This document shows positions 1 to 23,526 of a stretch of 24,739 nucleotides of DNA, piece after piece (position 1 is the first letter of the stretch; every line of letters begins with the position of its first letter). The position numbers and the translations under genes were made by a program. Origin of the DNA: a virus; the IMG/VR virus record IMGVR_UViG_3300032820_000110, positions 1 to 24,739 of that record; one strand, 5' to 3'. The notes under the pieces are model-generated. The model had not been told where the DNA came from and did not search any database. It saw only the letters and a program-made list of their open reading frames with translations.

Positions 1-3000
1 CTGAAGTTCTTGCCCTATTTTCTTCTTAAGAAAATTCCAAGACTTATTATTGGCCGCAAGCTTATTAAGTTTCATATTATCTTCGACCATTTCATACATC
101 ATGCCTTTTTGTTCGAAGTTTAACTTTCTACGTGAAAACTCAAAGTTTTGCTGGTCCTTAGAATATTTGACCAAACTATCTACCCATTTAGCATATAACT
201 TATCTGGATTAGCAATACTTATCCTACTAAGAGTGGTACTTTTACCTGCAACCAAATTCTCAAAAACACCCATTACTTTCTTAGATACCCTTTTATAATG
301 AGCACTAACACCATCTTCTGCTTTTATATGTCCAATCCTTCTCCCATCTCTAACAGTACGTAATAACCATTCTGCAGTTCTATCAGCATCAAATTCTGCA
401 AAACCCTTCTTAGTATCTCTATAAGCAGGGTTTGTCTTTTTAGCCTCTTCATAGGCTTCAAGTAATCTATCTCTTAAGCCGGGTTTAAAATGAAGTTCTT
501 CTAATTCATTAAGTTTAACTATATGCCCTATTTCATGGGCTACATAAATTTGAGCCATTTCTTCGCCCAACTGTTGGCTTGTGAATTTACCTTTCTTAAA
601 TGCCTTGCTAAGAGTTATTAACTCTTCTTTACTCAGAAATTTCAGTGCATATGGTTCCACCCGAACTGGGTAAGTATCTACTACAACTACCCATTTATCC
701 TCTCTTATTTGATAACTTGCTGCTGGATGAAGTTTAAGAGAACCATCGTCTTTTTGTTTAAGTTTCCATAGTGCATCTAAAGCATATCTAGATTGAGTAT
801 CGTTATATAACAAACCAACCTCAAGATCCTCTCTTTTTATTTTTGAGTTATATTCTGGGTTTATATCATTATAAGTAAGAAAAGTTACATCGGCTTTTAT
901 ACCAAACCAATTAAGGGAATCTAAAGTTTTAAGCATTGGTTTGGTCAAACTACCAAGATACTTTTTAAAATCCTCAGACATACTAGTAGTAGTCTTAGTC
1001 CTCTTTATCCCAGGTAATCTACCCTTCATCCAGTTTTTATCTATATATTTAAAATCAATCTCTGCATCTAAGCTATTATTTACAGCAATACCCCTGTTAT
1101 ATAATGAGGTCATATCAATACCCTCACCGAGCTTACTCCAACCAGCTATAATTGATGACATCTGCATCATGTCATATTCATCAGCTACTACTTCTTCTTC
1201 AGGGGTTCTCATACCCTCTATTTCTAAATTAGATACAGACAACCCAGCAGCCATATCCATAGGTTTTAAGTCCATAATATCCTGCTCTTGTACAGTATCG
1301 TAGATAGCATCATGGATATCTTGATAAATAGTTATCCTATCTTGATTTTCCTGCCCTGGTGTTGTGGGTCTTAATAAATGGTATTCAGATAATTTGTCCT
1401 CATTAGGAAATAACATTAAATCCCCATTATCATTATAGCCCCAGCCCAATAACCCAGATCTTTTGTTAAGATCAAGCATTTTTGTCTCTAAATCCTCTTG
1501 TCGCTCATTTATTCTTTGTGCATCTTCAGGGGTCAAAACTGTATCTTCTACCATTTCTCCTTCTTGTTGTGCTCGTGCTTCTTCTTCAAATCTTTCAATC
1601 TCCCATTGTTGGTCTGTTGTATAAACTCGTCCTGACACCCCATTTGAGTCATAAAACTCTACTTCCTCATAAATAATATCTTGAAGGGCCCCAGTCTCAT
1701 TACTCTTGTCCTCAGTTATAAGTCCTTCACTAACTAACCTTGCTAATGCTAGGTCCTCTACTTTTTCTCCCCTCTGCCCAAATAGCTCTTCTTGTCTCCC
1801 TGTTCTCGTTCTAAATGGGTTTCTTTTAGTTTGAGGTAATCGGAATCCTGGAAGTGCAGCAAATTCTCCTTTTGACTCTTTGGTATCAAGGCCCCCCATT
1901 TGATCTATTATTGTTAACGCACTAGATGATGGATACCATTTAGATTTAGTTTTTGGCCTTTCTAAAGGCAGTGAAGGGTAACTAATCCTAGTCTCTTCTT
2001 GTTGCCACTCTTCTTCAAGAAGTTCCCTTATCTGTTCTGCCCTTTCTGTAGTTAAATCCCTAGGTCCAGCTATATTTATTGTCTTACCTTCTAAACCATG
2101 ATTAACCATAAACTCATTTAATTCATACCAAGTAGGATTTACAATCAACGGTTTTCCTTCTTGTCTCGCTAACTTTATAGTTAAATTAGTACCAGGAGAG
2201 CCTTCTTGAGCCCCCTTCTCAAGCTTAGTGTTATATGTACCCTCTTTGTAATTAGTGAATACAATAGTCGCATCAGACTTTAGAATATTCTCATGCGTTC
2301 TAACTCTATACTTCTCAGCATTCGTATCAGTCTCTTTTGATTGTTCAGATTCAACTAACCCATAATTTTTAAGTGACTCTATATGCTGGGCCTTATCCTT
2401 AGCATTATTTAGATAACCTAATGGGGCAATACCTCCTGTTGGTATTTTCAATCCATCAGCAATTTCTAATCCAAGAAAATCAACGCCTTCTTGCCCCCCA
2501 GTTACAATTTTTCCTGGTCTCTTTATTCTAGAAAGTTCTTTACTAGACTTACTCTGACTATCCCAAAGCTTGTTTAAATTCTGCCCTATTTTAGAATTAA
2601 TTAGTTTTTCATCTACTTCCTTAATAAGGAAATGAAGAAAAGTTCCTTCTGTAGCTGTTAACTCCGTACCTTCAAGGTTATACCTCATTGACTTTATAAA
2701 TGAAGTTATTTGTCCCTTTAATCTTTGAGTTGTTCCTCTCTGATCAGAAGAATTCCTAATCAAATCACTTATAGTATATTCTGAGTATATCTTACCTTTA
2801 GACTCAATTAACTGCATAGGAGCAACATCTTGAAGGGGTATAGACACATCTAATTTATTTAATACTTTCCCACCAGCTTTTTGATTTGCCTTAAATCTAA
2901 ATTCATAGCCATGTTGCCTTGCCTGATGCAGGATTGTCTGGAAGGCATTAAAAGCGTGAGCTAAATTACTATTATCCCATTCTTGATCTGCCTTTAATAA

Positions 3001-6000
3001 AGCCCTACCTAAATGTATAACACTCGATACATCAAAAGGCTTTGTAACTTTTCTATACTCAAGATCAAGTTCATCTGCATAAGCCTTTTTATTTTCCCTT
3101 TTTCTTTTATCCACCTTGTCATATTTTTTATTAACCCTAGCTAGAACCTCTTTTGCATCTTCAGGGGTTATTACTCCAAAAACTGCGGCTTTTTTTCTTT
3201 TTGGTGATGCTCTATTATTAGCATCTATAAAAACCCTATCTATAAAATCAGATACTGGTAATAAGCTCTCTTGTAGTGCTTTTTTACCTGTTTTAGATTC
3301 CCCTCTATATGGTATTAAAATAGATTCTGGTGAAGGAATATGTTCAATAACAAATCCTAAATCATCTTCTACCCACCCCTGTGCTACGGGTAAAGGAGAA
3401 TCTTGTGTTAGCATTTCTAGAATATTAAAATACCCACCTGGGATACTCAATCCAGGAAAACTTAATTTATAAGCATCTACATCTTTAGGAATTTGTCGGA
3501 AATTAAATTTGTAAAATTTTTGTGCCCAGCCTGTTCCCTTTAGTACTTTATCAGTAAGAACATGTACAGGTACTGGAACAATCTTCCAATCTATACTGTT
3601 ATTAATATCTATAAGCCTACTAAACTCATTAAGTATATCTAGACCCGGTTTTGCTTTAACATCTTTATCAAATAAGAGATTAAAATTAGCTTTCTCTTGA
3701 GGGGCAAGTTTATTTAATATTTCTCTTTTAACTGCTGTATAAGCTTTTTGGATTGCCCTATCATTCTTAACCTTGTCTAAATCATCTCTAAACCTTCTAT
3801 AAGGCTCAGCATTCTCAAACATAGTTTTATTTTTACCTATGCGTATAACATTATCTTGTTCAGCTTCTTTTATTGTGAGCTCATAAGGATCTATACCATC
3901 AGCATTATTAGGATCAATAGATAATATTTCCTCTTCAGCAATTGTCTCTTCATCTTCAGTTTTTCTTTGCTCTTCTAATCTCCTTTTCTCTTGAGTTTCA
4001 ACAGCTTCTAATGCGCTTTGTATTTGGCCCGTTTTCCCCTCTTGTTCTTCAGCTAATGTAAGTTGTATCTCCTGAGTAGCTCTAATTTTATCTAATGCTT
4101 TTTCAGTTATTTGTAAGCCACTTAATCCAGTAATATCTTCCCCTTCTAAAGTGGTTCTCATAATTTGTAATAATCTTTCTTTAAGGGCCTCTCCTATTTT
4201 TCCCCATTCTTGTAATGGTAAAGATAACTTAGTAAGGTCTGTAACTTCCTTCCCACCCCATAGCTCATTATAAATACCCCTTAATACAAAGAAATCTGCA
4301 TCTTCCCCTTTTTTAGCACTTCCCCAAAATCTTTGTAGTACTCTTACTACCTCTTCTCCTGTTTTAGCGAGGTCTATATTAGATAAAGAATTTGTTAATC
4401 TAGTTTTATTTGCAAGGTCAATATTACTGGACTTAAAAGCTTCTAATTTTTGGTCTTCATTTACATCCTGTATATCAAACCCATTTTCTACTTTGAACCC
4501 ATCTTCTTCTTTATGGAGCTCTCTTTGTTTCTCTGCTGCCTTCTCTCTATCTTGTTGATTAGTAAGTTCCCTATGAACTACTGCACCCTCTTTGTTCTGC
4601 ACCTCTATAACAATATCGTCTCCAGGTTGTTCTAATCTCAATTTACCCAAAGCCTTAGCTATTGAAGCTCTGGAACCATCAGTCCTCCTAAATTCATCAA
4701 CTTTATTTTTTGCTGTACTAATTAACATCCCAACACCATCTATAGCGTGACTAAAGACTGTATTCTCCCCAATTATTTCCTGCATCTCTTTTGCAGTGGG
4801 TAAATTATCTAGCATTGCCGAACTGACAAAAAAGGAATCCTTACCAGACTTAGGATTAAAAATATTAGATAATTGAGCTTTAATATCCTTAAGAGATTCA
4901 AATATCCTATTAGGTTGAGATATATCAAAATTTGCGGCAGGAACAAGATCAAGCTCTGAAAGATTAGGCACCTTGGAAGATTTAATAGGTACTACTGCTT
5001 CTGTGCCCTTTACTTTTCTCTGTTTACCCTTTTTAAGGTCCTGTTCTAAAAAGGCTCTAGTTTTTCTATCCGCTGCCTCTTTTTGCTTTTGGGTAGTTCT
5101 TTTTCCTTGTGGGGTATCACTTGGTGTTTCTGGTCCCCCTTGAGTTGCCCCAAGCATATCCCTACTTTTCCTAAATACTGATTCCGCTGTTGATGACACT
5201 CCTCTACCACCGCCAGCAAAAAGACCACCACTTGTAACACCTTTAAAAGCCGCCTCCATAACATCCATTTTCATTTGGGCTGTAGTGTAATCATCATCAA
5301 TAGCGAGTCTTTGTAACCCTGTCATAGTATCCTGAATAGTTTCAGCACCACCTTCGGCAACAGCACCTTGAGCAAGACCCATTCCAATATCAGCACCAAT
5401 TTTTTGTAATTCTTTTTGAAGCCCCATATATGTAGCTGCTTCAGCTGCTGAGGCAGTTGCTATTTTACGTTTAATTATACGTAAAAGAGGTGTGATAACT
5501 GAAGTAGCCATAATAACTTCAGCCCCAACACCAACACCAGCATAAGGCACACCAACTCCCATACTTATAGCAGCTTCCCTACGACCAGTCATACCTTCCC
5601 TAGCAAAAGTCCCAAAAGTTATACCAGTTCCTTGAACATATTCCTGTGCATAAGCTCCTGCTAATCCACCTACAGCTCCTGGTCGCCTAATACCAGATAG
5701 CCCTGCTCTAGTAAACATCTCCCTTTTAGCTCCAGGCCTACCAAGAACTTTTTGCATTAACTTAAGACTACCTTCCGCTAATTGATCATCCCATACCTTC
5801 TGTTTAGAAAGTAACTTCTTACCCTTCTTCGTAAAAGACTGCCCTATAATTTTTCTCAAGGCCATTTTAGAACTTTGAGAAAATCCAAACTTGGCTGCTC
5901 CTCCAACAGCAAGACCACCCCACAATGGGGCAGTAGACCCAAGAGCAACAGCAAGAATAGAACCAATAACTGCAGAAGTTATACTAGCCAACATAGAAGG

Positions 6001-6863: not shown

Positions 6864-9320
6864 TTATTGGCTCCTAGCTGCTATAGCTGCTTTTTTGCGC
6901 CTGAAATAATCTTCATACCATCCAAATTTTTGACCAAATAAACTCTGTAGACGATGTGCCATCAAATACTCTGTACCAAATCCTTGGCTCTTGTTTGGGT
7001 CTACAATAAGCTCACCATTTTTGTCTTTTTTTAGCTTGCCCTCACTATCTCTTTCATAAACCTCCCCAATTCCGCCTATTGTCACATATAACAACTTATC
7101 TGTATCAGGATCAAACACCCCATTCATTTGACCAATAATACCCCCAACATTCGCCATATCTTTTATCGAGTAACCAAATTTATTCTTCCACCATTTATCA
7201 AACTCGGTTATCCTTGCACCCTCGAGCGTCTCTCTAAGATTCCTCAATATGGCATGACCACCAAGCTCACCTAGAGCCATCTCTGATTGCCTAATAGAAT
7301 TTTCTATCCGTATTGTTGTTTCTTCATCTCTTGTAATAAATGGGTCTCCTTCCCTTGCAATATTCTGCCTTTCCCAATGAGAAAATAGATCAAACAGATT
7401 AGCTGTAAAAGCATTTTGCACAACCTCATTAAAACCTCCATATCCTGTCTCAGGGTCATATAAAGCTTGAATAGTTCTAGTAGCTATATCTGATGTCTCC
7501 TTGTCCCAATCCGAAAACTCATTTAAAAAATATTGTTGCATCTTTACATTATGTTCTAACGTATCTTTGTTCGCAGCAATAGCATTCTTTAAATCAGCAT
7601 CATACTGTGCTGGAGTTTTTCCTAATATAAGCATTTTGGTCATCGCATCTATCTCAGCTACACGCTGTAGCATCGTTGCATTAGGGTTACCTATTAATGA
7701 CCAGTTATAAGCTAAGTCTTCAAATACTAGACGTTTCTCATTAAGAGAAGCCGTTTTTGACTTTATAACATCACTAGGTGTTATTAAATCATGTTTAGCC
7801 ACTATCAACTTTGCATTTAACCCCTTAAGCTCATTCTCTAAAGCATTTTTATCTTCAGTTAATTTACCTCTCTTATTTGCTGCAGCTGCTATTGAATTAT
7901 CCGTTGGGACTCCTTTATCCTCATTAGTTTTATCTTCACCAACTAATCTTTTCCTTGTAACTGTTCTTTCTCCACCTTTTACCGTTTGGGTTGTCTCATA
8001 CTCTTCTACTTTCTTATTCTCGTAGTTCATCATCTGCTCATCAATATAGAGCTGATCTTTAGCCATCTGATCTTTATAACGCTGAATGCTAGGGCTACCA
8101 ACTTTACCGTCCGATATCAATTTATCTATCTTGGCTTGTCCCTTGGCTATTCGTAGTGAAGCTCTCTTAACCCTTCTTACAGTACCTTTTGTTCCCCTAA
8201 GTCCTGTACCCCCTGGGCCGAGAATTTCAGGGAATGCCTCAGTTCTTGCCACAACATCAGCGTGCCTATGAGATTGTTCTCTTAAACTAGCTGGAGTTAA
8301 ATCGTCTTTACTCCAATTATGGAGATAAGAAGAAACATCCCCATCTTCAGTAAATACTGCTCTTTGCTCATCAATACTATCTGGGTCCGTAACTACGTCC
8401 TCTGGGGGTTTTGCCCCTGCCATAAGTTTCTTTGCTATTTCACCTTTAAACTCTTTTTTCTTCTCTAATTCTTTAACTTCACCAAGAGGGTCTGTTTGTA
8501 TAGATATTCCTGATTTTGTAATGAGTGTTTCAACTTTTTCCTTTAGAGCTTCTGTATGAGTTTCCTGTTGTTCCAAAAGGGCTCCCACTTTCGCTCTTAT
8601 CTCTACAGGTGGTAAATCCTCTAGGTCCTGGGCCAACTTATCTATTTCTTTAGTTATACTAGTTATATTCCCCTCTAACCTTTTTATTTCTGCCTTTTCC
8701 TCATCCCATTCCTCCCCAACAAGATTTTCTAGGTCCTTCATATCCACACCCAATGAACCAGCTATTGCTTTCCCTTGGTTCCAATAAAATTGTTCCTCTC
8801 CTCCTTTTGCAACCCATAAGTTCCTTATCATTACTTTGCCTAACCCTTGTATATCTTTCTCGGAGAATCTAGTAAAGGTTTGTTCATCCTCTACTCCTTC
8901 CTCACCTATTCCGGCTCCCGGTGCCCCATTTTTTATAACTCTATTACCATCTTCTAAAACCGTAGTCCCTCCAAAGTCACCTTTAGCATATTTACTTGGG
9001 TTTTTTCTTAAATCTCTTCTTACTTTCTTTGTGTATTTTAAAAACCCAGGAACCGTCTTCCCAAGGTCTTTAATAATAGTTTTATTCTTTGGGAGATTAA
9101 CCGCTTTTTCATTAATTTTGTAACCAACAATAGGATCATCGGGATCCTCAACAATTATCCCATTAAGAATGGCTTTCACCCATACGCTACCCGCGAATTT
9201 TTTTCTTGCTTTTTGTTCTTGTTCAGTAGGTACACCACTGTTCCCTAATTTTGACAGCATTACCTGTCTTAAAGGAGACCTAGCTAAGCCACTGGCAAAC
9301 CCACCATAATCAGTCGCCAT
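6864..9320 (-). CDS. Large coiled-coil internal virion protein (818 aa)
   Basis: I do not recognise a named family. The 818-residue protein is highly charged and mostly helical. It has a clear coiled-coil stretch around residues 205-270 (alternating Glu/Lys with regular Leu/Ile) and further helical segments around 400-450 and 500-540. There is no signal peptide or obvious membrane segment. Its start overlaps the stop of the S74-domain gene by one base (TAATG), and the giant lysozyme-domain gene follows 2 nt after its stop. That position, between small Ala-rich proteins and a giant lysozyme-bearing protein, is where T7-like phages encode the gp15-type ejection protein, so an internal core or ejection-channel role is inferred from synteny. 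A tail structural protein is an alternative. Confidence 0.8.
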   Translation of the reverse strand: MATDYGGFASGLARSPLRQVMLSKLGNSGVPTEQEQKARKKFAGSVWVKAILNGIIVEDPDDPIVGYKINEKAVNLPKNKTIIKDLGKTVPGFLKYTKKVRRDLRKNPSKYAKGDFGGTTVLEDGNRVIKNGAPGAGIGEEGVEDEQTFTRFSEKDIQGLGKVMIRNLWVAKGGEEQFYWNQGKAIAGSLGVDMKDLENLVGEEWDEEKAEIKRLEGNITSITKEIDKLAQDLEDLPPVEIRAKVGALLEQQETHTEALKEKVETLITKSGISIQTDPLGEVKELEKKKEFKGEIAKKLMAGAKPPEDVVTDPDSIDEQRAVFTEDGDVSSYLHNWSKDDLTPASLREQSHRHADVVARTEAFPEILGPGGTGLRGTKGTVRRVKRASLRIAKGQAKIDKLISDGKVGSPSIQRYKDQMAKDQLYIDEQMMNYENKKVEEYETTQTVKGGERTVTRKRLVGEDKTNEDKGVPTDNSIAAAANKRGKLTEDKNALENELKGLNAKLIVAKHDLITPSDVIKSKTASLNEKRLVFEDLAYNWSLIGNPNATMLQRVAEIDAMTKMLILGKTPAQYDADLKNAIAANKDTLEHNVKMQQYFLNEFSDWDKETSDIATRTIQALYDPETGYGGFNEVVQNAFTANLFDLFSHWERQNIAREGDPFITRDEETTIRIENSIRQSEMALGELGGHAILRNLRETLEGARITEFDKWWKNKFGYSIKDMANVGGIIGQMNGVFDPDTDKLLYVTIGGIGEVYERDSEGKLKKDKNGELIVDPNKSQGFGTEYLMAHRLQSLFGQKFGWYEDYFRRKKAAIAARSQ

Positions 9321-15408: not shown

Positions 15409-17523
15409 CTATTTATTGCTAGTTATTGCAGCTGTTGCCATTTTAACAGCAGCTTGCGTTTCCGTCTGCCCCCTTCTCATATCATTCGTATCAGCAGATA
15501 GGTTTTGACGTAATGCTAATTCTTCTCTCTTCATCTGTAACTCAGCCTGTAATTTAGCTATCTGTATTTGTGGATCTATTTGAGATATATCCTGTGCTTT
15601 AGCTGTATTAAGTTGGGCTTCAGATTGAGTTCTCATAACTTCAGCTTCTAATTGAGCTATCGTTAATTGTATTTGCCTAATTTGTGCTTCTGCTTGGAAT
15701 TGCATAATTGCTGCTTCTTCTTCGGTTGGTGGTTCTTGTCCAGTCATTACCCTTATACGTCTTGCAAGTTCATTTTTCCTCTGTAAGTTCGAGTATTCTA
15801 TAATAACATCATCAGGTATGGGAACCCCCATTTGTTTTAGTTCTAGTGCCTGTGCAAACTGAATATCATCAAAATTGTCCCTAGCTGGTGCAGTACTTAC
15901 AATTACATCGTACTCACCAATTGTTAAGTCATTAACAACTATGCCTTCAGGGGTCATCTGATTAACCATCATTGGTTCACGTGGTTTCATTGGGTCTTCT
16001 TCATTTGTAACCTGAATAACCCGCTCTTCAGTATAAAAATTTTGTATTAAACCTAATACATTTTCTGCTAGATATTGTCTTGTCTTAGTCAGATTATCTA
16101 ATGGAACCTGAATCATCAAAGCCCCCCGTTCCTGTTTAGCTCTTATTGCTACTCCTGATACTTCTGGTTTATCAGTGCCTAACATAGAATCACCAATACC
16201 ACTTATCTCTTTTATATTAAATGAAGCTTTCATAGCTATACGATCTAAACCAGTGGGGATTGTATTGGATGGAATTTTGGCAGGGAGGGCGGAGCCACGA
16301 TTATACTCGAGAACTAACCCTGTCTCAGCCCCATGTTCCTCTAAGTCATCTGCAGTCATACCCACTAACGACCCAGACTCCACCATCCACCCACTATTAG
16401 CAGTGGTGTTTACTATGTGTAGCTCTTGAGAGGAAATTTTATTAAGTTGTTCTTGAGGTGAGAGTAAATTTCTCACCATACCAAATGGTTTACCTCTTCG
16501 CCAATAAGGGAAATAAGGCACAATAGTAAAATCAGAATAAGGAGACCAATCATCATGAAGTACCACTTTATCAGCGGTTACTGTCCACTTAACCTTTTTA
16601 ACTAGTTTTTCAATTACACTTAATCCATAGTCACTTGCAAATTTATTCCTCTTTTGTTTTGACCAACCATAAGGAACTTCTCTCATATCCCCTGTAAAAT
16701 CATCAACAAAGAATTGACAGTTCATAAGCTTACGATGTTGTCGTTCAATAACCCTTATTGCTCTAACTGCTCCAACTTCTTCTGGAATATTTGGAGATGT
16801 TGAGCCTGAATATTCCAAATTAGCATTTGTATCTCCATATCTCTGTTCTTCATATTCAATAGAGTCCATTCCATAACTTGATCCGTTCTCCGCTATCACT
16901 CTTAACTTATCTGCTTTTTTCTGCCCATACAGTTCTTCAATTTCATCCGTTGTCATCCAACGGGTCTTAAATACTTCGTCCCACGTTTTTGGGTCCCATT
17001 CTTTTGCGTCAGGGTCTATTAATATATCTAATGGATCTTCAGCTTTTATTCTTACCTCTCCTTCCAAATGGTCACTAAAGTCCATGCGTACATCAAAATA
17101 CCCACGGTCCTGAATTAATCCGTCCGTAAATACCTGGCTCTCTGTCCAATCTAATTTATTATTATCACCAATTTGCTTAAATAATTTATTAAGAACAACT
17201 GCCGTTTCTTCATTGGTATTTCTTCTAGGCTTAAATGAAATATCCATTCTTCTCGTAGACTGTTCACCTATTACAGTATTTACAGTCGGAAGTATTGTAT
17301 TAATTGTAAGTGCAGGTCTGCCTTCTTCATCTAAAGCTGCAATATCTGCTTGATCCCACTGATCCCCCCGATAAAAAGCATCACAGCGTTTAGCCATCTC
17401 GACATAATCTATATGACCATTGTCCCTGGCCCTTTTATAACGTTCCCAATTATTTTTGGAAATACGCCCCTCTTCTTCCCCGCTCAGTTTTTTCTGTTTT
17501 TTACTATATCTAGGATCTGGCAT
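15409..17523 (-). CDS. Portal protein (P22-type)
   Basis: The 704-aa protein fits the P22 portal family in length and motifs. Near the N-terminus are DYVEMAKRCDAFYRGDQWD and RPALTINTILPTVNTVIGEQ, then QVFTDGLIQDRGYFDVRMD and EDPLDILIDPDAKEWD. The central part has VPYFPYWRRGKPFGMVRNL and SPQEQLNKISSQELHIVNTT, then the GIGDSMLGTDKPEVSGVAIR segment of the stem/tunnel region. Residues 630-700 are a Gln/Ala-rich coiled coil. The portal forms the dodecameric vertex through which terminase packages DNA. Its ATG overlaps the large terminase stop by one base (TAATG) and the scaffold gene follows 9 nt downstream. Confidence 0.93.
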   Translation of the reverse strand: MPDPRYSKKQKKLSGEEEGRISKNNWERYKRARDNGHIDYVEMAKRCDAFYRGDQWDQADIAALDEEGRPALTINTILPTVNTVIGEQSTRRMDISFKPRRNTNEETAVVLNKLFKQIGDNNKLDWTESQVFTDGLIQDRGYFDVRMDFSDHLEGEVRIKAEDPLDILIDPDAKEWDPKTWDEVFKTRWMTTDEIEELYGQKKADKLRVIAENGSSYGMDSIEYEEQRYGDTNANLEYSGSTSPNIPEEVGAVRAIRVIERQHRKLMNCQFFVDDFTGDMREVPYGWSKQKRNKFASDYGLSVIEKLVKKVKWTVTADKVVLHDDWSPYSDFTIVPYFPYWRRGKPFGMVRNLLSPQEQLNKISSQELHIVNTTANSGWMVESGSLVGMTADDLEEHGAETGLVLEYNRGSALPAKIPSNTIPTGLDRIAMKASFNIKEISGIGDSMLGTDKPEVSGVAIRAKQERGALMIQVPLDNLTKTRQYLAENVLGLIQNFYTEERVIQVTNEEDPMKPREPMMVNQMTPEGIVVNDLTIGEYDVIVSTAPARDNFDDIQFAQALELKQMGVPIPDDVIIEYSNLQRKNELARRIRVMTGQEPPTEEEAAIMQFQAEAQIRQIQLTIAQLEAEVMRTQSEAQLNTAKAQDISQIDPQIQIAKLQAELQMKREELALRQNLSADTNDMRRGQTETQAAVKMATAAITSNK

Positions 17524-19175
17524 TATGCTCTCATTGCTGTTTTATCTTTCTCACCTTTTACGAGGTGTCTTAATTTATCTCTCCAAGACGGAACATGTAC
17601 AACTGGTTCAATATAAGTACCAAACTCAGCCATCATTAATCCAACCCATGCCAAAGCATCAACTTGGTCATCGTGTACTCCATTAGGAAAACGTAATAAT
17701 TCCGCAACCAGTGGACCGGTCCAAATTTCATCTTTCGGAATCTTAACCATCCCTTGCTGCATTCTACCTTGTATCGCCCTCGCTCTTGCTTCTTTATCTC
17801 GCCTTCCCGGCTTTAAATCTTTGAAATAGGCCTCGTATAGTTTACGCTCTCTTACCCTCTTTTCCAAGAATGGACCAAGGGCCATTTCTATGTGACCTTT
17901 CTCAATACCAATTATGCTTGGTCTCCACTGTTGATACAAGTCTAAAATGCGTTCAACTATATCAAAACCATCAAATTTCCCACGAACAAGGTCAATTACA
18001 TATATACAATCATATTCATCCACCCCCACGACAATCCCAACAGTATAATCGTTTCTATCTCTTTGACCAATGGCCAAGTCCCATGCACAGTAAAATTTCA
18101 TCCTACCAAGGTCTATATCGTCAGGTTCATAATAACGAATCATATCCCTGGTGAAATAATCTCCTTCATCTGATACTGGGTTCTGTTGGTATAACGCTGA
18201 CCAATCTCGAGGGCCGATGGCCCTTTGTATTTTGGTTAGTGCCTCTAAATTATATCTCTCTGGATGTAAAGGTTCACCTATCTCCCTGAAATTTTCAGCA
18301 GCTTCCGCTACCGCTGGATATTTGACTACTTCCCATTCATCACCACCATCGGCTGCGTTTCTTAATAGACGACCAGCTAAATCATCATCATGCCATCTCG
18401 TTAAAATAATAAGTATGCCACCACCAGGAGCAAGACGTGTATAAGCTGTGGATGTATACCAGTCCCAAACATTATCCCTATTGAAATCTGATTCTGCATC
18501 TTCACGGTTTTTTACTGGGTCATCTATTACCAGAACGTGAGCTCCCTTACCCGTAATACCACCACCAACACCAGCTGATACATAACCACCACCTTTGGTA
18601 GTCAACCATGCTTCAACTGACTGCGAATGTGGGTCCAATCTTGAATCAGAGAACACAGTCTTATATAATGGTTCACGCAGTAAGTGACGGACCTTTCTAC
18701 TGAAAGACATCGCTAAAGATCCAGAATAAGAACAACTTATAAACTCGTGTTTTGGGTTTCTGCCCAAGTGCCAGGCGGGGAACGTAATACTAGCCAATGT
18801 TGATTTTCCATGCCTTGGTGGCATAAACAACATTAATCTAGGAGATTTACGATCAACTACATCTTGGCTAAACTGTTCAAGCCGTTTGCAAATATCTTTG
18901 TGAACCCAGCCAGCTTGATAATCCGGTGTAAAACGCTCTACAAAAGGGAGCAGTCTTTTACGTGAAAGTATACGTTTGGCTAATTCTTTTTGTGCCTTTA
19001 ATGATGCGCCTTCTTCCTTTGGATCTTCTCCTTGTTCAACTTGATCAGGGATCGGGTCAATCTTTTCAGCGTCATCGGCTCGACAATATACACATAGCCC
19101 ATGTTCCTGTGAGAATAGAGTCTGAGGATGTAATTTCTTACAACGTGGGCATTCTATATTAGGGATTGCACTCAT
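17523..19175 (-). CDS. terL: Terminase large subunit
   Basis: The 550-aa packaging motor has an ATPase domain: the Walker A motif is in PPRHGKST (119-126), the Walker B region in VLVIDDP (214-220), and LTRWHDD (259-265) resembles the coupling motif. Its RNase H-like nuclease domain has acidic residues D366 (AWDLAIG), E425 (GIEKG) and D502/D503 (HDDQVDALAW). It cuts concatemeric DNA and pumps it into the prohead through the portal encoded next. The first 35 residues contain CPRC (9-12) and CVYC (28-31), a zinc-ribbon-like pair not part of the standard terminase core. The start overlaps the stop of the ART-like gene by 4 nt (ATGA) and the stop overlaps the portal start by 1 nt. Confidence 0.95.
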   Translation of the reverse strand: MSAIPNIECPRCKKLHPQTLFSQEHGLCVYCRADDAEKIDPIPDQVEQGEDPKEEGASLKAQKELAKRILSRKRLLPFVERFTPDYQAGWVHKDICKRLEQFSQDVVDRKSPRLMLFMPPRHGKSTLASITFPAWHLGRNPKHEFISCSYSGSLAMSFSRKVRHLLREPLYKTVFSDSRLDPHSQSVEAWLTTKGGGYVSAGVGGGITGKGAHVLVIDDPVKNREDAESDFNRDNVWDWYTSTAYTRLAPGGGILIILTRWHDDDLAGRLLRNAADGGDEWEVVKYPAVAEAAENFREIGEPLHPERYNLEALTKIQRAIGPRDWSALYQQNPVSDEGDYFTRDMIRYYEPDDIDLGRMKFYCAWDLAIGQRDRNDYTVGIVVGVDEYDCIYVIDLVRGKFDGFDIVERILDLYQQWRPSIIGIEKGHIEMALGPFLEKRVRERKLYEAYFKDLKPGRRDKEARARAIQGRMQQGMVKIPKDEIWTGPLVAELLRFPNGVHDDQVDALAWVGLMMAEFGTYIEPVVHVPSWRDKLRHLVKGEKDKTAMRA

Positions 19176-21858: not shown

Positions 21859-22197
21859 ATGGCAGCTTTCCAAAAAGTTATTTATGATATATGCGTAAGC
21901 ATGGGACACTACATCGATAAAGAAACGGGAGAAACCAAATCCTCTCTGCTTAAAATCGGTGTTGGATACCAAAACGGAGATGGTTCTATCAATGACAGAT
22001 ATGATCTACCTATTCCCTTAGAGAATAAGAGAGTACAGATTATAGATAAAAGAGAAGAATCAGGACTAAGATGGGTCAACACTCAAGTTCCCATGGATAC
22101 AGTCCACTTCCTTCAAGATAAATTCAAGCCTACTAAGAAAAAGGCTACATCTACGAAGAAAGTCGCTTCAGAGCCCGGAGATATCTTTGATGGTTGA
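21859..22197 (+). CDS. Conserved small phage protein (112 aa), possibly nucleic-acid-related
   Basis: The 112-aa protein is beta-rich in its first 80 residues (VIYDICVSMGHYIDKETGE, SSLLKIGVGYQNGDGSI, LPIPLENKRVQII). The pattern of a strand, then TGxYxDxxGxxK, then GVxxxxDGS resembles small phage and plasmid proteins with an OB-like outline, but no function is established. The C-terminus (88-105) is Lys/Thr/Ser-rich and basic, compatible with nucleic-acid binding. AGAGG lies 8 nt before the ATG. It is the first gene of the rightward module and overlaps the next gene by 8 nt. Confidence 0.7.
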   Translation: MAAFQKVIYDICVSMGHYIDKETGETKSSLLKIGVGYQNGDGSINDRYDLPIPLENKRVQIIDKREESGLRWVNTQVPMDTVHFLQDKFKPTKKKATSTKKVASEPGDIFDG

Positions 22198-22522
22198 TTC
22201 CAAAAGAGATGTAAAAGCAGAGCTAGGAGTACTTACAACACTTCTGGCTCAGGGTATCTTAACCGCTAAAGATGGACTAGCTTATCTACAAAAAAGATAT
22301 GCTGAACTTCAGCTAACTGCTAACCGCTTAGATCAACTAAGAGTAGGAGACTTAGACGATCAAATAGAGACTTTAGAGCTAAAAATGGACGCTGTAAGAC
22401 TTCTCAGAGATCATAAACCCCAAGAGGGAGTGAACTATGACGAAGAACTAGCATTCATGGACATAGAACTTAAGCAATTAAGAGCTAAAAGAGCCGAGGT
22501 CTCACCTCAACAAGAGTCTTAA
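22190..22522 (+). CDS. Small helical protein of unknown function (110 aa)
   Basis: The 110-aa protein is almost entirely helical and charged, with heptad-like segments (AELQLTANRLDQLRVGDLDD and EELAFMDIELKQLRAKRAEV) suggesting a coiled coil. I chose ATG at 22190, not the in-frame TTG at 22187, because GGAG at 22177-22180 sits 9 nt before it. It overlaps the preceding gene and is followed 15 nt later by a strong terminator. No family was recognised. Confidence 0.65.
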   Translation: MVDSKRDVKAELGVLTTLLAQGILTAKDGLAYLQKRYAELQLTANRLDQLRVGDLDDQIETLELKMDAVRLLRDHKPQEGVNYDEELAFMDIELKQLRAKRAEVSPQQES

Positions 22523-22614: not shown

Positions 22615-22634
22615 ATTAGCCATCCCTGGCTAAT
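22615..22634. repeat. Perfect hairpin, first of a twin pair
   Basis: ATTAGCCA-TCCC-TGGCTAAT, an 8-bp perfect stem with a TCCC loop. The core AGCCATCCCTGGCT is repeated 31 bp downstream. Confidence 0.85.
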
Positions 22635-22645
22635 ACATCTGAAAG

Positions 22646-22661
22646 CAGCCATCCCTGGCTG
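22646..22661. repeat. Perfect hairpin, second of a twin pair
   Basis: CAGCCA-TCCC-TGGCTG, a 6-bp perfect stem with the same TCCC loop and the same inner core as the hairpin at 22615-22634. Flanking stem bases differ but still pair, which suggests the structure matters. Confidence 0.85.
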
Positions 22662-22680: not shown

Positions 22681-22721
22681 GTGTGCGGTGTGCGGGTGAC
22701 ATCGTTAGGTGTGCGGTGTGC
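22681..22721 (+). repeat. Direct repeat of 13 bp (two copies, 28-bp period)
   Basis: GTGTGCGGTGTGC occurs at 22681-22693 and 22709-22721. Each copy is itself two GTGTGC units. A related GGTGTGCG lies at 22743-22750. Confidence 0.8.
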
Positions 22722-22723
22722 TA

Positions 22724-22771
22724 TTACTACTATCATCAGCGAGGTGTGCGAGCTGATTTACTACTATCATC
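22724..22771 (+). repeat. Direct repeat of 14 bp (two copies, 34-bp period)
   Basis: TTACTACTATCATC occurs at 22724-22737 and 22758-22771. Between them ATCAGC (22735-22740) and GCTGAT (22752-22757) form an inverted pair, and ATCGC-GTTA-GCGAT (22769-22782) forms a hairpin next to the second copy. Confidence 0.8.
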
Positions 22772-22799
22772 GCGTTAGCGATGTGGACTGTACAGCGTA

Positions 22800-22838
22800 C
22801 TTGGACCCCTTTTCTGTAAAAAAGGGCATCCGTCCAAG
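22800..22838. repeat. Long interrupted hairpin
   Basis: CTTGGAC (22800-22806) pairs with GTCCAAG (22832-22838), and the inner CCCTTTT (22807-22813) pairs with AAAAGGG (22820-22826). Only a 5-nt bulge on the right arm interrupts 14 bp of stem. No T-tract follows, so it is not a simple terminator. Confidence 0.75.
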
Positions 22839-22845
22839 AGACCCC

Positions 22846-23184
22846 TGTGTACCGGTACACACCGGCAATCGCCACGGACGTGGTACACACCTAAGCTGTT
22901 GATTTAAAAGGACATTTCATAATGTGTACCACGTGTACCACGTGTACCAGCTAATTTCGCTGTTTAACCATAGACCATCGACCATAGATATTTATCATAG
23001 AATGTATGAATATGAATATTAGACGGTACACATGGTACACAAGCCCAATTACGTCTGAAATACCCCACAAAATCAATGACTTAGTGTGTACCACCACGCC
23101 TAAATCGTTAGTGGTACACAAAACACGCTGTACAGCAACTTCTTCAATATATTCAATAGCTTAATGTGTACCACTGTGTACCAC
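22846..23184. repeat. Iteron-like array of GTGTACCAC elements
   Basis: The 16-bp palindrome TGTGTACCGGTACACA lies at 22846-22861. Forward GTGTACCAC or one-mismatch copies lie at 22924, 22933 and 22942 (three in tandem, 9-bp period), 23086, 23166 and 23176. Reverse copies (GTGGTACAC or variants) lie at 22880, 23023, 23032 and 23111. The density far exceeds chance and no gene frame explains it. It is a probable binding array for a phage DNA-binding protein, either an origin or a regulatory region. Confidence 0.8.
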
Positions 23185-23195
23185 CAACATCGAAC

Positions 23196-23217
23196 GATAT
23201 GCGCTGGCGCGCATATC
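23196..23217. repeat. Perfect 9-bp inverted repeat
   Basis: GATATGCGC (23196-23204) and GCGCATATC (23209-23217) flank TGGC. It lies 70 bp before the start of the small-gene module. It may be an operator or mRNA hairpin. Confidence 0.8.
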
Positions 23218-23233
23218 AGCAGACGGTATTTAT

Positions 23234-23255
23234 GAGGATATGACCATATATCCTC
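23234..23255. repeat. 8-bp inverted repeat before the small-gene operon
   Basis: GAGGATAT (23234-23241) and ATATCCTC (23248-23255) flank GACCAT. It lies about 30 bp upstream of the ATG at 23287 and could be an operator or leader hairpin. Confidence 0.7.
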
Positions 23256-23286
23256 TCTACTTTAACCAACAAAATAGGAGAAAAAC

Positions 23287-23526
23287 ATGTTGATAAGGAG
23301 AATATCGTTGCTCACTGGGACTGAGCACACAAAAGAAGTCCCAATAACTGACCAACAAGCTAGAGATTTAACCTCTGACACAGGCTTGATTCAAGAAATA
23401 TGCCCAAATCTATCTAGTACAGATAGAGAATTCCTAATGACTGGCATAACTCTAGAAGAATGGGAAGACGCTTTCGGTGGCCCATTAGACGCTGAATCTG
23501 ATGATGAAATAGGAGGATTGCAATGA
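23287..23526 (+). CDS. Conserved small acidic phage protein (79 aa)
   Basis: The 79-aa acidic protein has a pattern common in small early-region phage proteins: an N-terminal strand with a SxLTGxxHT-like motif (ISLLTGTEHTKEVPI), a helix containing LIQEICPNLSSTDREFLMTG, and ITLEEWEDAF. The combination of NLSxxDREFLMTGIT and EEWE is recognisable, but the family has no known function to my knowledge. AGGAG lies 6 nt before the ATG. Its stop overlaps the next start (ATGA, 23523-23526). Confidence 0.75.
   Translation: MLIRRISLLTGTEHTKEVPITDQQARDLTSDTGLIQEICPNLSSTDREFLMTGITLEEWEDAFGGPLDAESDDEIGGLQ

Follow-up and report, generated by a model that had tools for sequence, protein, structure and literature searches.

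In the origins of phage-inducible chromosomal islands (PICI), an AT-rich region is flanked by two sets of iterons (PMC6092414). In PICI and in Staphylococcus aureus pathogenicity islands (SaPI), the origin lies immediately 3' of rep and the initiator is a primase plus a helicase (PMC6092414, PMC7581432). SaPI Rep recognizes its own origin through its C-terminal domain, as does Cch2 of staphylococcal cassette chromosome mec (SCCmec) (PMC7581432). The record of phage P4 annotates ori type-1 repeats at 9310, 9320, 9331, 9353 (inverted), 9396, and 9406, together with two crr repeats 3' of alpha; for phage NrS-1, the primase recognition site, TTTGGTTA, has been defined experimentally (PMC8718748). 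Here we describe an array of short iterons, with the core GTGTACC, in a tailed-phage genome fragment of 24,739 bases (IMG/VR record IMGVR_UViG_3300032820_000110, positions 1 to 24,739; the whole stretch is called the window below). This array is very probably a phage replication origin of the P4/SaPI/NrS-1 kind, compact and two-sided, with the phage's own primase-superfamily 3 (SF3) helicase as its likely initiator; the evidence for this reading is comparative throughout.

We found 16 exact copies of GTGTACC in the window, seven forward and five reverse within 336 bp of noncoding DNA (22847-23182) and four elsewhere, so the motif is not equally dense outside the array. The initial annotation had described about eleven copies in both orientations over 340 bp: the array and its use of both strands are real, but the count is twelve. 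With one mismatch or fewer allowed, the 9-base word GTGTACCAC has 13 matches in the window versus 2.5 expected (none of 100 shuffles reached 13), nine of which lie within 22880-23184. The array consists of the following parts.

22846..22861, 16-bp palindrome TGTGTACCGGTACACA, formed by the outermost pair of left iterons in head-to-head orientation
22847..22948, left half-array, six iterons in the order +--+++ (exact matches)
22949..23024, central spacer, 76 bp, 70% A+T, putative melting region
22966..22986, + strand, heptad ladder AACCATA-GACCATC-GACCATA (7-bp period), on the left side of the centre
23025..23182, right half-array, six iterons in the order --+-++ (exact matches)
GTGTACC starts, + strand: 22847, 22924, 22933, 22942, 23086, 23166, 23176
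GTGTACC starts, - strand: 22854, 22882, 23025, 23034, 23113

The innermost sites of both halves are tandem at 9 bp and face each other across the centre; by nearest-neighbor stability, the weakest 50-mer of the centre ranks within the least stable 2% of the window. The palindrome and the head-to-tail triplet at an exact 9-bp period (22924/22933/22942) had both been pointed out in the initial annotation, and both are present. So is the noncoding setting: the array sits in a 764-bp gap between + strand open reading frames (ORFs) 22187-22522 and 23287-23526, and a 61-aa ORF on the - strand (22705-22890), a mechanical call overlapping the left edge of the array, shows no conservation as a protein.

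The locus resembles P4 ori and crr in having short iterons in both orientations at 9-11 bp (P4 TGTTCACC, window TGTGTACC) alongside AT-rich DNA, and a primase-helicase with a DUF5906-type helicase in the same genome, as seen in a sister contig. It differs from P4 in its word (TGTGTACC shares 6 of 8 bases with P4's TGTTCACC / GGTGAACA); in uniting two facing halves in one 340-bp locus, whereas ori and crr are 4.7 kb apart; in a predicted initiator whose primase is AEP-like (archaeo-eukaryotic primase) rather than the Toprim of P4 alpha; and in the position of the initiator gene, 12.4 kb from the array rather than directly 5' of it as at crr. Arrays of four other contigs (L042, L092, L134, and L138) do lie directly 3' of their primase gene. 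P4 ori spacings are 10, 11, 22+43, and 10, with one inverted site. The half-arrays of L076 (right half, read in reverse; 9, 11, 26+40, 9) and G025 (9, 10, 26+39, 9) match P4 ori in both order and spacing, more closely than the window's own halves do, and other half-arrays differ from P4 ori by about one helical turn; 1.1% of 360 rearrangements of the same spacings matched P4 equally well.

Like the SaPI/PICI rep-ori, the window has two iteron sets, here of six each, flanking its AT-rich centre; unlike in those elements, the gene of its predicted initiator is distant, and whereas they are satellites, the window phage has its own terminase, portal, and head genes. SCCmec Cch2 and Cch are likewise self-loading helicases, and Cch2 uses its C-terminal domain to bind repeats that lie 3' of the gene encoding it (PMC7581432), but its site contains three 5-nucleotide AAGTG iterons and belongs to a staphylococcal mobile element. 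Classical plasmid Rep origins have direct repeats of about 17-22 bp. The array, with 9- to 10-bp spacing in both orientations and no Rep initiator match among the small + strand proteins nearby, is unlike them, as the initial annotation had said of the spacing.

NrS-1 (L143, AB746912) carries 11 GTGTAAC copies in both orientations at 17061-17434, directly 3' of its primase-polymerase gene and overlapped by an annotated hypothetical coding sequence; the record's only exact TTTGGTTA lies inside this array, which is likely the NrS-1 origin. The NrS-1 polymerase is the closest solved structure to the predicted window initiator (6k9c/6k9e/6lrb), but it has an HBD domain and 718 residues, and its repeat layout is not six-plus-six. 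Pseudomonas aeruginosa phage KPP25 (L139, NC_024123, Kochitakasuvirus) has a window-like genome layout and a primase-helicase homologue that is 30% identical. In its syntenic gap (26219-26894, 676 bp), TGTTACG occurs eight times, on both strands, to either side of an AT-rich stretch; this array differs from that of the window in its word, TGTTACGA, its centre of about 111 bp, and its four exact sites on each side. We regard this array, which is not annotated in the record and for which the CRPAP1904 paper makes no mention of an origin, as a candidate origin of Kochitakasuvirus.

A primase-helicase family linked to the array

A sister contig, IMGVR_UViG_3300032278_000078 (L114), is 99.9% identical to the window over 7,553 bases. 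Its positions 2102-4561 encode a primase-SF3 helicase of 819 aa; the gene lies 12.4 kb downstream of the array and is oriented like the early genes. This protein (phrog_24712) has a DUF5906 helicase (E 1e-17), which P4 alpha also has; a search of the array contigs for D5_N (PF08706) found nothing, and DUF5906 was the fitting domain. Among solved structures, the NrS-1 C-terminal helicase region comes closest to it by sequence (E 1e-25) and was also the best fold match of its structural model, a model of medium confidence (mean predicted local distance difference test score, pLDDT, of 64). Because the AEP domain of S-2L PrimPol ranked next among the fold matches, the N terminus is probably an AEP primase; the C terminus resembles a winged helix in the models. 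The initial annotation had looked to the small plus-strand proteins as binders of the array. These are probably the wrong candidates; the likely binder is the 819-aa primase-helicase, encoded outside the window.

Linkage between array and primase family was observed in both directions. The family is encoded by 80 viral contigs. At the primase loci that we fetched, a GTGTACC array was present in L149 only, plus variant words in L177 and L219; arrays were few there because the array usually lies more than 10 kb from the gene. Where primase contigs also reached the early region via the terminase large subunit gene (TerL), the array was at the syntenic place, 2-4.5 kb past TerL, in all ten, and a second round of the primase-to-array search found nine more arrays. 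Each of the ten syntenic arrays has CTGTACC, GTGTACC, TGGTTCC, or ATGTTCC as its word, with virtually all copies in an array changed jointly. In the reverse direction, the array contigs from other lineages, G007, G042, L042, L092, L134, and L138 carry this primase-helicase or a relative; the array is directly 3' of a phrog_2249 primase (P4 alpha family) in L042, L092, and L134 and of an NrS-1-like primase-polymerase in L138. The primase-helicase is the one family that joins the window clade with G015, G021, L134, and NrS-1.

Some of these loci have features of their own. The L138 array (Thermomicrobiales metagenome-assembled genome, JAUJOZ010000058) is small, spanning 1816-1925 immediately 3' of the primase-polymerase gene, and the P4-alpha-type primase-helicase of L092 (1775-4578) appears as two overlapping ORFs, a Toprim part and a helicase part. 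In phage phiA008 (L141/L142), a noncoding gap at 2811-3227 has an AT-rich middle and several CTAGA copies and is possibly a diverged origin.

Array geometry and iteron word across relatives

A protein search led to three array-bearing relatives and pattern searches added more; the array is present in the syntenic region of relatives, where the initial annotation had advised looking for it. Many relatives share the order ++-+++ on the left of the centre and --+-++ on the right, with spacings of 10, 25, 42, 9, 9, 82, 9, 54, 26, 55, and 10. Between the window and L009, L112, or L025, identity is 94-95% in the sites and 63-67% in the spacers, with 5-6 gap columns per comparison: sequence drifts while iteron sites and distances persist. 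In these three relatives the palindrome is replaced by two direct iterons 10 bp apart. The centre is 73-79 bp long in nearly all relatives with a recognized core (85 in L025, counting exact sites only), and GACCRT-type heptads occur at equal offset in most clade members but are absent from the outgroup arrays L076, L102, and L132.

Left halves of six sites are found in most relatives of the clade. Counting exact words, there are six sites per side in the window, L112, L076/L089, L132, G028, G033, G037, G077, G078, G080, G035, G025, and G082; the remaining arrays have four to seven per side, and outgroups differ. The form of the array persists even though neighboring genes differ between array-bearing lineages, and GTGTACC co-occurs with at least three TerL families (phrog_38, phrog_2, and phrog_3717). 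Two sets of sequences were put aside in these searches: of the 102 stretches in which GTGTACC occurs three times at a 9-bp period, most were coding repeats (one strand, spacings multiples of 9), and L113/G005, found via a 79-aa neighbor protein, shares a small gene only and lacks both the array and a noncoding gap at that place.

Iteron words and residues at the helicase C terminus also changed together. Phages with TGTACC arrays have a predicted C-terminal wing of the form RKRxG...SAPRG, and those with TTCC arrays have RKRx[ST]...[IV]PRG; CTGTACC pairs with a GEGE variant and ATGTTCC with S[SA][ND]K. For 12 unseen contigs we predicted the word beforehand from these residues, and the prediction was correct in all nine where the array was in reach (three were out of reach). 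G007 has a different wing, yet keeps GTGTACC. Taken together, these data are suggestive of a link between word and helicase C terminus.

Competing explanations and a proposed mechanism

The initial annotation had offered two explanations for the tight spacing, a different type of origin or a cooperative repressor array. Multiple sites at helical spacing between two + strand genes would suit an operator array at which a phage repressor or activator binds cooperatively and controls the early + strand genes from 23287 onwards, but this is improbable: the form of the array is kept while its neighbors differ between lineages, no transcription factor family is common to the array-bearing lineages, and two-sided symmetry about a 73- to 79-bp AT-rich centre is unusual for operators. 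The first explanation is well supported, given iterons of about one helical turn, two sets of them around an AT-rich centre, and a partner of the P4-alpha/NrS-1 type. A pac site bound by the small terminase seems very unlikely. Two points speak for it: the array of the window clade is constantly in the neighborhood of TerL (2-4.5 kb), and in L060 and L079 unrelated terminases are within 1.4-3.2 kb of the array. But the same word accompanies at least three TerL families, the array touches the primase gene in L042, L092, L134, L138, and NrS-1, and we attribute the proximity to placement of the array between the replication and packaging modules. Short repeats at 9-11 bp in two groups resemble parC of plasmid R1, a likeness that we counted for a partition centromere (parC/tubC-like) of a plasmid-like prophage; nevertheless, we find this scarcely credible, since the adjoining small + strand proteins have no PHROG match of known function, no segregation protein is among the families common to array-bearing lineages, and array-bearing relatives look like ordinary tailed phages.

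There is a small but appreciable chance that the array is an origin whose iterons are read by another protein, either a small phage protein or a host factor, with the primase-helicase recruited second. GTGTACC is found with AEP-SF3, Toprim-SF3, and DUF927 initiators whose C termini are not visibly alike, as such an arrangement would allow; however, word and helicase C terminus change jointly in the window clade, SaPI Rep and Cch2 use their own C-terminal domains for origin recognition (PMC7581432), and no other family links the array-bearing lineages.

For an origin read by the primase-helicase itself, we infer that replication would start at the array, that the 819-aa protein would bind it, and that the six-plus-six layout may reflect two hexamers. 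In the mechanism that we propose, the C-terminal winged-helix-like domain would bind each 9-bp GTGTACC iteron, and helicase subunits would assemble on the six sites of each half-array; these two assemblies, opposite in orientation, would then melt the 76-bp AT-rich centre and form two helicase rings on the separated strands, and as the rings moved apart, primers would be made by the N-terminal AEP-like primase domain. It is natural to hypothesize that each site serves one subunit of two facing hexamers. The fullest version, a single-locus, two-sided P4 origin with six iterons per half, one per hexamer subunit, whose word and wing co-evolve to give pairs of different specificity, is tentative and on balance doubtful.

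Several observations weigh against the origin and its proposed initiator or limit the evidence for them. The initiator gene is outside the window and not adjacent to the array in the window lineage; its C-terminal domain was modeled with medium confidence (pLDDT of roughly 70-80 for the winged helix-turn-helix part), and Foldseek with this domain alone gave no significant fold match. Only three word changes are required on a tree built from the remainder of the protein, so few are independent and shared ancestry explains much of the agreement between word and residues. The DUF5906 comparison (7 of 10 named array contigs of ≥20 kb versus 3 of 30 comparison contigs) is a modest control: the count omits G005, which has no array, and the comparison set was hand-chosen, with two of the 30 (L050 and L082) later found to hold arrays. 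These two share GTGTACC, and the L082 genome carries a DUF927/HTH_56 (Cch-type) helicase instead (L235-L236, G071); thus, a single word can accompany different types of initiator. Phage phiA008, with a 29% identical homologue, has no clear array. The P4 spacing match is post hoc, and the polarity of the P4 word relative to that of the window is ambiguous. Cumulative GC skew, a check that the initial annotation recommended, reaches its minimum at 23000-23499, which counts for an origin there but is confounded by a nearby switch of gene direction. Finally, exact-site totals outside the clade are 9 (L042), 10 (L092), 4 (L134), 5 (L138), and 8 (KPP25); as six-plus-six fails there, we treat it as a feature of this clade rather than a general rule.

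The comparison provides a predicted origin and initiator for phages known mainly from metagenomes and for the P. aeruginosa KPP25 group, in whose records the initiator is annotated as "hypothetical protein," and it suggests that a common layout underlies P4 ori/crr, PICI origins, and the NrS-1 repeats. Natural word classes that go with small differences at the helicase C terminus offer a way to test how a self-loading SF3 helicase reads its origin and how this specificity may shift while replication is maintained; with its six-plus-six layout, the array also lends itself to tests of the facing-hexamer idea.

Flanking elements and gene setting

Outside the array, two copies of a flanking element lie to its left, and TerL serves as a synteny landmark.

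17523..19175, - strand, terminase large subunit (phrog_38, E 3.5e-123), outside the origin
22724..22737, + strand, flanking element TTACTACTATCATC, copy 1
22758..22771, + strand, flanking element TTACTACTATCATC, copy 2

In 21 of 21 clade members examined, and with every iteron word, a copy of the TACTATCATC core of this element lies 58-93 bp to the left of the first iteron and on the same strand, usually as the only exact copy in the genome (57-61 kb); outgroups lack it. The longer form has an exact 12-base match once or twice per genome. Because TACTATCATC is constant across iteron words, its reader, if any, must be something that does not change with the word. The complement of TTACTACTATCATC reads TAGTAGTAA, which is DnaA-trio-like and led us to consider a DnaA-driven origin; we rejected this, as the sole copy of the DnaA box TTATNCACA in the window is at 5645, with none near the melting region.

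Tail, head, portal (phrog_156), and TerL genes occupy the minus strand of the window, the major head protein gene being there along with TerL and portal; beyond this block lie an endonuclease VII-like gene and then the small plus-strand genes. The array region gave no family in an Rfam scan and no match when used as query in a DNA-level search of phage records, and promoter-like matches in it were at chance (4 found versus 5.0 expected). Further left in the same gap, two copies of AGCCATCCCTGGCT lie 29 bp apart at 22618-22660, each of which could form a small hairpin, and two copies of GTGTGCGGTGTGC are found at 22681 and 22709; both pairs are poorly conserved in relatives.
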